A stretch of 64,000 bases of DNA from Bacillota bacterium. Lineage in GTDB: Bacteria > Bacillota > Clostridia > Christensenellales > CAG-138. The notes beneath the pieces are model-generated. The model worked only from the letters and a program-made list of their open reading frames with translations, ran no database searches and was not told the origin of the DNA. Shown one piece after another: positions 20,422 through 33,276 of the stretch. A program made the translations under genes and the position numbers. Positions within the stretch are counted from its first letter, which is position 1. Each line of letters opens with the position of its first letter. The stretch spans positions 1 through 64,000 of the forward strand of contig JAEESS010000006.1 in the NCBI GenBank assembly GCA_016286445.1, read 5' to 3'.

Positions 20422-20458
20422 GGAAAGAGACGGTTCAAAGCCGTCTCTTTTTTGTTGC
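20422..20458 (+). terminator. terminator after rplA (copy 1 of a duplicated unit)
   Basis: GGAAAGAGACGG-ttcaaag-CCGTCTCTTTTTTGTTGC. Confidence 0.9.
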
Positions 20459-20523
20459 ACGCATGGATCCACTCATGGTATACTAAATAAAATACTTTCG
20501 GAAACCGGGAGCGGAGGTCAGAT

Positions 20524-21106: not shown

Positions 21107-21144
21107 GGAAAGAGACGGTTCAAAGCCGTCTCTTTTTTTGTTGC
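21107..21144 (+). terminator. terminator, copy 2 of the duplicated unit
   Basis: GGAAAGAGACGGTTCAAAGCCGTCTCTTTTTTTGTTGC, identical to 20422-20458 apart from one extra T. Confidence 0.9.
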
Positions 21145-21199
21145 GTCTGCGGGGGCTTCTATGGTATACTGGTTCCAACGAAAACAGGAGGTCAAACAC

Positions 21200-31719: not shown

Positions 31720-32241
31720 TTACAACGGCTCTATGAGACCGAAATTGCCGTCTTTACGCTTATAAAGGACGTTGATTTCGTTCGTGTCCACGTTGCGGAA
31801 AACGTAGAAGGCATGCCCCAAGAGCTCAATCTGCAGCATTGCCTCCTCCTCGCTCATCGGCTTGACGGAGAACTGCTTCACGCGGACGATGCGCGGACCT
31901 TCCTCTTCGTCCTCTTCGTCCTCGAACGGAAGATCGCGGAATGCATCCTGGCGAAGTCCCTTGGCGAGACGCGTGCGGTTGTGCACGATCTGCTTTTCGA
32001 GTTTTTCGACGATGTTGTCGAGTGACGCATACATGTCGCCCGAGACCTCCTCGCCGCGGATGATGCGACCCTCATGCGGGATCGTCACCTCGACGATGTG
32101 GCGGTTCTTTTCGACGGAGAGAGTGACCTGTGCTTCTGTGTCCTGCGGGAAGTACCGATCCAGCTTGGAGAGCTTCTTTTCAGCGACTTCTCGCATGTAG
32201 TCGGAAACCTCCAGATTCTTGCCGGAAATAGAAATACGCAT
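31720..32241 (-). CDS. hpf: long-form ribosome hibernation promoting factor
   Basis: MRISISGKNLEVSDYMREVAEKKLSKLDRYFPQDTEAQVTLSVEKNRHIVEVTI...; C-terminal domain VRVKQFSVKPMSEEEAMLQIELLGHAFYVFRNVDTNEINVLYKRKDGNFGLIEP. Confidence 0.96.
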   Translation of the reverse strand: MRISISGKNLEVSDYMREVAEKKLSKLDRYFPQDTEAQVTLSVEKNRHIVEVTIPHEGRIIRGEEVSGDMYASLDNIVEKLEKQIVHNRTRLAKGLRQDAFRDLPFEDEEDEEEGPRIVRVKQFSVKPMSEEEAMLQIELLGHAFYVFRNVDTNEINVLYKRKDGNFGLIEPL

Positions 32242-32457
32242 ATGTTCCACTCCTTCTGACACGGGTATTGTGTTCGTGTCATCTATATATTAACATACTT
32301 TTCCGGAAATATCTTCCCTTTTTTCAAAAAAACACAAAAATTTTGATATTCATCCTCTTTTCGCGCAGGATTCAGCCCTTTTCGCGTATCGCGCGCTCTT
32401 TTTTGAAGAATTGTTTCAGATCATTCACAAAGATAACGCGATTCTGACACAACTTCG

Positions 32458-32735
32458 TGGTATACTCTGCTTGCAGAGACCGGAAAAGTCTCTGCATCAA
32501 GAACTGTCTTGATCAACTCTCCCCCCTTGAGATCACGTGCCGCCCCCTCGGCGCGTGATTTCCGTTCAACGGAAGCAAAACGTCCGTCGAAAGGACGATC
32601 CCGCATCGCCGGATCGTTTCTTCGCCCTCTGCCTGTCGTCCGCGGACGATGCGGGCGGCAGAGCGCAAGGGGCATAACGGGTTCGACAGCGAAACTGCGG
32701 ACCTGAACGCCGAAGGAGAACCGGTCTGCGTGTGC
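32458..32735 (+). ncRNA. candidate structured non-coding RNA with own promoter, adjacent to hpf/raiA (possible raiA-motif RNA)
   Basis: Extended -10 TG-G-TATACT (32458-32466); RNA would start ~32472 at hairpin GCAGAGAC-cggaaaa-GTCTCTGC; then ATCAAGA-actg-TCTTGAT, ATCACGTGCCG-ccccct-CGGCGCGTGAT (11 bp), TTCCG-ttcaa-CGGAA, CGTCC-gtcgaaa-GGACG, long-range CCGCATCG/CGATGCGG, CTCTGCC/GGCAGAG and GCGGACC/GGTCTGC; no convincing ORF. Confidence 0.6.
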
Positions 32736-32770
32736 AAAATATCAAAAATTGAGCATGCGGATGCGCATGT

Positions 32771-32799
32771 TGACAAACAATGCCCGCCATGCTACAATC
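32771..32799 (+). promoter_or_regulatory. sigma-70/A-type promoter for the 32839 lipoprotein gene
   Basis: TTGACA - 17 nt - TACAAT. Confidence 0.7.
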
Positions 32800-32838: not shown

Positions 32839-33276
32839 ATGAAACGGACCGTTTTTATCATTTGTATCCTGCTTGCACTGCTGTGCGCTGCGTGTTCAAA
32901 GAAACCGGACGACCTGTTTTTCTCAAACAGTACCGGGACGACGCTCGACAGCATTTATGTCGGCAATGTCGAAAGTCTCGGTCCGCCGCTGAATATTTAC
33001 CCGCTCGCCGACGGAACTTCACTCGGGCTGAATCTGGAAAAGCTCGGCGGTCCCGGCGTATATACGATCGGCGCGATCAACCCGGATCGGTTCTGCTTCA
33101 TCGCATATGACGTGGAACTGACGTCCGGAGATACGATGGAACTGGGAGAGGCGTTTATCAGAAACGGATACAGCTGCTTCATGCTGACCGTGACGCATGC
33201 GGACTGGTCGGAGACGAGCTATATCGGCTATGCTTTCGACGAGGTGGATCTTATCACCGCGATCGAAAATCAGTAA
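32839..33276 (+). CDS. small lipoprotein, unknown function
   Basis: MKRTVFIICILLALLCAACSKKPDDLFFSNSTGTTLDSIYVG...; lipobox; RBS ggaaggag. Confidence 0.7.
   Translation: MKRTVFIICILLALLCAACSKKPDDLFFSNSTGTTLDSIYVGNVESLGPPLNIYPLADGTSLGLNLEKLGGPGVYTIGAINPDRFCFIAYDVELTSGDTMELGEAFIRNGYSCFMLTVTHADWSETSYIGYAFDEVDLITAIENQ

Follow-up and report, generated by a model that had tools for sequence, protein, structure and literature searches.

A conserved C-rich small RNA gene beside hpf in Christensenellales, predicted to block Shine-Dalgarno sequences together with a co-regulated paralogue

Judging from comparison with related genomes, positions 32471-32562 of the DNA analysed here (the window: the first 64,000 nucleotides of contig JAEESS010000006.1, assembly GCA_016286445.1, Bacillota, Christensenellales) are a real, conserved gene for an RNA, preceded by a promoter region of its own. 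The gene probably encodes a trans-acting small RNA (sRNA) that is driven by an activator, blocks Shine-Dalgarno (SD) sequences with its runs of C and is co-regulated with a paralogue. Its sequence is conserved, its helices covary, its operator is shared with a second locus and the gene has been relocated away from hpf in some genomes. We infer its transcription, the identity of the activator, and the pairing and repression proposed below.

The gap between hpf and a lipoprotein gene starting at 32839 contains a series of hairpins, which the preliminary description had combined into one RNA, ~280 nt in length and with pseudoknotted pairing. The 276-nt region has a folding energy of −126.7 kcal/mol, against −94.7±5.4 kcal/mol for dinucleotide shuffles (z −5.93, 0/200). 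Comparison with related genomes divided the interval into two parts: conservation stops at the third hairpin (~32562) and the remainder appears to be a repeat copy. The single long RNA is not supported. That a structured RNA is encoded separately beside hpf, under a promoter of its own, is backed, at the level of sequence, by covariation in homologues. The hairpins GCAGAGAC/GTCTCTGC and ATCAAGA/TCTTGAT and the long hairpin that follows are exactly as described (Table 1). As the lipoprotein gene has a promoter of its own, the sRNA is not its leader.

Table 1. Features of the hpf-lipoprotein interval in window coordinates.
Feature	Position	Strand	Remarks
hpf (long-form ribosome hibernation factor)	31720-32241	−	divergent neighbour of sRNA gene; start at 32241
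sRNA operator and −10	32413-32466	+	aligned in the genus and other genera
sRNA gene	32471-32562	+	covariance-model match, 88.3 bits
Hairpin 1, GCAGAGAC/GTCTCTGC	32473-32495	+	covarying
Hairpin 2, ATCAAGA/TCTTGAT	32496-32513	+	swapped in divergent members
Linker CAACTCTCCCCCCTT, single-stranded, predicted anti-SD pairing region	32514-32528	+	C-run kept
Hairpin 3, terminator-like, 14 bp, loop CCCCCT (32543-32548)	32529-32562	+	covarying; short U tail
Probable decayed intergenic-repeat copy, outside sRNA	32575-32735	+	core match 32582-32672
Sigma-70 promoter of lipoprotein gene, TTGACA-17-TACAAT, 11/12	32770-32798	+	

From its 5' end, the ~92-nt RNA comprises hairpins 1 and 2, then CUCUCCCCCC as a single strand, and lastly a terminator-like hairpin whose loop is CCCCCU. 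A covariance model (R1) built from 11 sequences detected one strong copy in 16 of the 23 genomes of the genus, 13 of them divergent from hpf and three elsewhere (G018, G019 and G020), where ORF reading gave radical-SAM-like, lysA-like and lexA-like neighbours, respectively. Its presence away from hpf in these three genomes indicates that the sRNA is an independent gene. Three genomes (L053, L054 and L057) had an intact hpf locus from which the sRNA gene was missing, and in G011 the copy no longer has the 5' arm of its third hairpin. The g15 members, on which R1 was not trained, matched at E values of 2e-4 to 6e-3. Outside the genus, L071-L073 carried CCUCC and CCCCCC motifs, and two of these matched R1 despite not having trained it. 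At hpf in L165, L169 and L076, inspection by eye showed comparable C-rich units whose promoters are laid out in the same way. Overall, C-rich RNAs were recognisable at hpf in several genera other than the host's.

Helices 1 and 3 contained 19 double-sided compensatory cells, compared with 5.8 expected from shuffles, and 99% of their cells were paired, compared with 34-53% in slid-partner controls. Double-sided changes were found in four of the six pairs of hairpin 1. The constant element is the C-runs, located in the linker, the terminator loop and sometimes the hairpin-2 loop, with neighbouring positions that vary; the linker C-run was present in all intact members. Hairpin 2 and the 5' half are fully different between subgroups, divergent members having other hairpins or C-rich linkers (for example, GACAG..CTGTC with a loop containing CCCTTCCC, or CAACCUCCAUUAUACUUCCUAAUAAUACUCCCCCC as the linker), and types could be distinguished as ACUCUCCCCCC versus CAACCUCCAUUAUACUUCC. 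Element lengths range from 83 to 98 nt with gaps that are not multiples of three, and this variation without a reading frame indicates that the element is not coding sequence. Points against the sRNA reading are the short U tail that follows hairpin 3 (TTTC), the defective copy in G011 and the three hpf loci that lack the gene. Unpaired C-rich motifs, conserved within a compact RNA with a terminator-like 3' hairpin and encoded by a relocatable gene with its own promoter, correspond in anatomy and independence to the C-rich, SD-targeting class.

Concerning the promoter, the operator elements are GTTTCAG..TTCACA (32424-32429), ATAACG (32433-32438) and CTGACA (32444-32449), the last followed after an 11-nt gap by the −10 TATACT (32461-32466). 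The spacing of TTCACA, ATAACG, CTGACA and TATACT is fixed across genera. No sigma-70 −35 element was found at the usual distance from the TATACT at 32461. A sigma-70 promoter running from TGACA to TATACT was ruled out by its spacing of only 11 nt, and a sigma-B/F-like reading (GTTT..GGGTAT) was dropped because neither hexamer is conserved across members. The genus genomes were searched with the pattern TTCAC-N6-AACG-N2-TTT-N-TGACA-N11-TATANT, allowing up to three mismatches. This gave mostly one to four sites per genome, with 0 in every genome for the reversed control, and the matches were the sRNA promoter plus, in most genus genomes, a second locus. An operator common to two sRNA loci is present in most of these genomes and might be a response-regulator site, as would be expected under two-component control of the csRNA/LhrC type. 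Direct repeats without a −35 element are typical of OmpR/PhoB-family activators, and the shared activator is probably a response regulator of the OmpR/PhoB type. The CiaR sites, TTTAAG-N5-TTTAAG, are a case of such direct repeats (PMC3091779). A phosphate Pho regulon was unsupported: pstS (PF12849) was found in 3 of the 23 genus genomes and is missing from most.

The −10 TGGTATACT noted in the preliminary description does recur, with three occurrences in the window against 0.03 expected; the copies at 20476 and 21162, however, precede ordinary genes and lack the operator. Near-identical AGAGACGGTTCAAAGCCGTCTCTTTTTT terminator hairpins lie within 20425-20484 and 21110-21170, each with the TGGTATACT −10 within the following ~50 bp, and the pair looks like a local duplication. 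On the hpf side, g13/g10 loci (L159-L164, L074 and L077 among them) have a TTCGTTCAC-like (or GTGAACGAA) box upstream of hpf. The box is retained also at loci without a visible C-rich RNA and may be a shared hpf regulatory site.

The second locus bears a C-rich RNA of ~120 nt (in the host genome G000, contig C57, box 33077-33119 on the minus strand, L288). Its operator is longer, GTTTGCATTTTCTTCACATTCTTGTGACGCTTCTTTCACATGGATAACGCATTTTTGACGCATTT, with five NTNACR-like units spaced 11, 11, 9 and 11 bp. The RNA has a GCGGG..CCCGC hairpin with the loop TTACCCCT and, in most copies, a second hairpin. These are followed by ACTCCTCCTTATCATTACCCCCCTCTATCCT, ~31 nt in which only the count of Cs varies, and by a terminator-like hairpin whose loop is C-rich. 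The ACUCCUCCUUAUCAUUACCCCCCUCUAUCCU stretch is nearly invariant, the paralogue as a whole being more conserved than the first sRNA, and its CCUCCUU resembles the 16S rRNA anti-SD. R1 detected the paralogue at E values of 0.0015-0.007, and it was also found at L269, L270, L274, L275, L277, L279, L281, L283-L285, L292 and L296. In G003, the first RNA is missing at hpf and two paralogue copies are present 1.9 kb apart. Part of the paralogue operator is duplicated in tandem in G011. Against Rfam, on its own strand, the paralogue gave sub-threshold matches to ar14, NsiR4 and BjrC1505 (19-21 bits; gathering scores 40-58.8). These are C-rich loop RNAs, and their families are proteobacterial or cyanobacterial, unlike the host, so that the likeness is an analogy only.

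Positions 32575-32735 are, on sequence grounds, a decayed copy of an intergenic repeat and not part of the sRNA. The repeat occurs throughout the genus, is ~150 nt long and structured, and comprises a hairpin, a GCCT..CGGGCGGC hairpin and GCAAGGnGTnAAATCCGCCGCGCATGTCGCCGGATTTnACGG. Its tail pattern (up to two mismatches) was found at 14 sites in G000 and recurred in most genomes of the genus, with as many as 23 matches, whereas the reversed control had none. The window copy escaped a fixed-spacing pattern of the core and was recovered by a profile model built without the window (leave-out nhmmer), which gave a single, weak window match at 32582-32672 (E=0.0032). The orthologous site in G006 and other relatives holds a clear repeat copy. 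The TTCCG/CGGAA and CGTCC/GGACG hairpins, together with the long-range pairs and the string likened to tmRNA, all fall within the decayed copy or its flank. As to that string, neither ARAGORN nor Rfam found a tmRNA, and the tmRNA resemblance suggested earlier is not supported. Among the repeat sites of G000, which include L206-L218, the copies L213, L215 and L216 have an extra hairpin insert of ~50 nt, and G007 (L059) has copies in tandem.

The mechanism that we propose would begin with an activator, likely of the OmpR/PhoB type, binding direct repeats about one helical turn apart and bringing in RNA polymerase at a promoter with a −10 and no −35. The resulting ~92-nt RNA would form two 5' hairpins and the terminator hairpin, leaving the C-rich stretches of the linker and terminator loop unpaired. 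These could then pair with G-rich SD sequences of target mRNAs, which would block translation, and the second locus would supply a paralogous sRNA through the same operator, giving a small co-regulated set. We favour trans-acting SD blocking because C-rich motifs repeated over the loop, linker and terminator typify compact sRNAs of this kind in Bacillota. A scan of G000 for GGGGGAG SD sequences gave 25 plausible start sites, compared with 6 in a reversed control, which is suggestive only. The best target candidate was dapA, whose AAGGGGGAG is retained widely across the genus, including in genomes without the sRNA at hpf. As conservation of this site does not track presence of the sRNA, no target is claimed.

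The repeated loop motifs can also be read differently. Several redundant motifs are typical of sponge RNAs as well, and the conserved C-runs might bind a protein instead of mRNA SD sequences. We regard this as unlikely, since the motif is CCUCC/UCCCCCC, the complement of the SD, and not GGA, the paralogue has CCUCCUU, and motifs of the same class have been shown to pair with SDs in LhrC, IsrR, RsaE and FsrA. A somewhat more doubtful extension of SD pairing is that the sRNA and its paralogue mimic the 16S anti-SD tail and act as a global translation brake under stresses that also require HPF; the conserved CCUCCUU/CCUCC and CCCCCC would, on this speculative proposal, compete for many SD sequences at once. 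If true, ribosome hibernation in Christensenellales would be connected with a two-component system.

Three further explanations concern the locus itself. That the hairpins form a cis-acting leader or a bidirectional regulatory cluster for hpf or the lipoprotein gene is suggested by the divergent placement beside hpf, seen in 13 genomes of the genus and also in other genera. It is improbable, however, because the sRNA lies upstream of hpf at a distance of about 230 bp and on the opposite strand. Moreover, the lipoprotein gene is served by a separate 11/12 promoter and was not present at the other genus loci tested, and the element is found elsewhere in G018, G019 and G020. A still less probable view takes the whole of 32458-32735 as a cluster of repeats or mobile palindromes without RNA function. 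The preliminary description had itself named an intergenic-repeat copy as what would overturn its reading, and this does hold for 32575-32735, the 3' two thirds; 32471-32562 is exempt, being single-copy per genome and covarying, with a promoter spacing fixed across genera. Finally, a divergent, oppositely oriented raiA motif (ModT) RNA had been considered on account of the adjacency to hpf/raiA, and raiA genes do flank 66% of modT loci (PMC11706538). We give this identity virtually no weight, as the raiA motif model (RF03072) produced no match in the sRNA region even at E≤10, size and structure differ, and the genome carries its true, intact raiA RNA separately on another contig (G000:C41:6208-6415, 194.8 bits). 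That copy adjoins a small CxxC zinc-ribbon-like ORF, not hpf; in other genera of the family (G028, G029 and G050), the raiA RNA is about 4 kb from hpf.

The reading as a trans-acting, SD-blocking sRNA was also compared with known RNA families. An Rfam search of the window gave no family at gathering scores and nothing relevant at E≤10, and searches with lax filters on short segments, and over 15 loci, gave no known family for the sRNA. The models of RsaE/RoxS, LhrC, csRNA and other C-rich sRNAs in Rfam did not recover it either. Elsewhere, L071:2837-2909 and L061:1071-1145, both on the minus strand, matched the Gut-1 RNA with 49.6 and 35.4 bits (cut-off 50). Literature searching that combined sRNA, hpf and C-rich found no paper, nor did a full-text search on regulatory RNAs of uncultured rumen Christensenellales, to which the host belongs judging by the names of its closest relatives; as far as these searches show, no such sRNA family has been described in the host lineage. 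Supported by covariation and sharing its operator with a paralogue, the sRNA family would amount to a two-gene regulon in little-known RNA territory, and would extend to a new order the csRNA/LhrC logic of several C-rich sRNAs under one switch. That the gene recurs next to hpf suggests a connection with the control of translation in stationary phase.

Among known systems, LhrC1-5 of Listeria monocytogenes have CU-rich motifs in stem-loop, single strand and terminator, and are expressed only with LisRK (PMC4132741). They share with the RNAs described here redundant C/CU-rich motifs, multiple copies, a common regulated promoter and, by inference for our sRNA, SD targeting, whereas sequence, neighbours and operator differ and no Rfam match was seen at any reported score. 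The streptococcal csRNAs of the CiaRH regulon likewise combine stem-loops with unpaired SD-complementary stretches, have several paralogues per genome and, like our sRNA, direct repeats of 11-bp period upstream (PMC3091779). Their TTTAAG-N5-TTTAAG sites contrast with the TTCAC/AACG/TGAC-like operator found here, and their AUG-complement motif was not identified in our RNAs. The raiA motif/ModT RNA (RF03072) is also a non-coding RNA often neighbouring raiA/hpf, and is otherwise a different RNA. RsaE/RoxS and IsrR of Bacillota, the latter with three C-rich regions, block SD sequences by C-rich regions as proposed here (PMC9217828, PMC9410917), while our sRNA has no covariance-model match to any Rfam family. 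The sRNA is a new family, probably of the LhrC/csRNA-like kind, outside those Rfam families.
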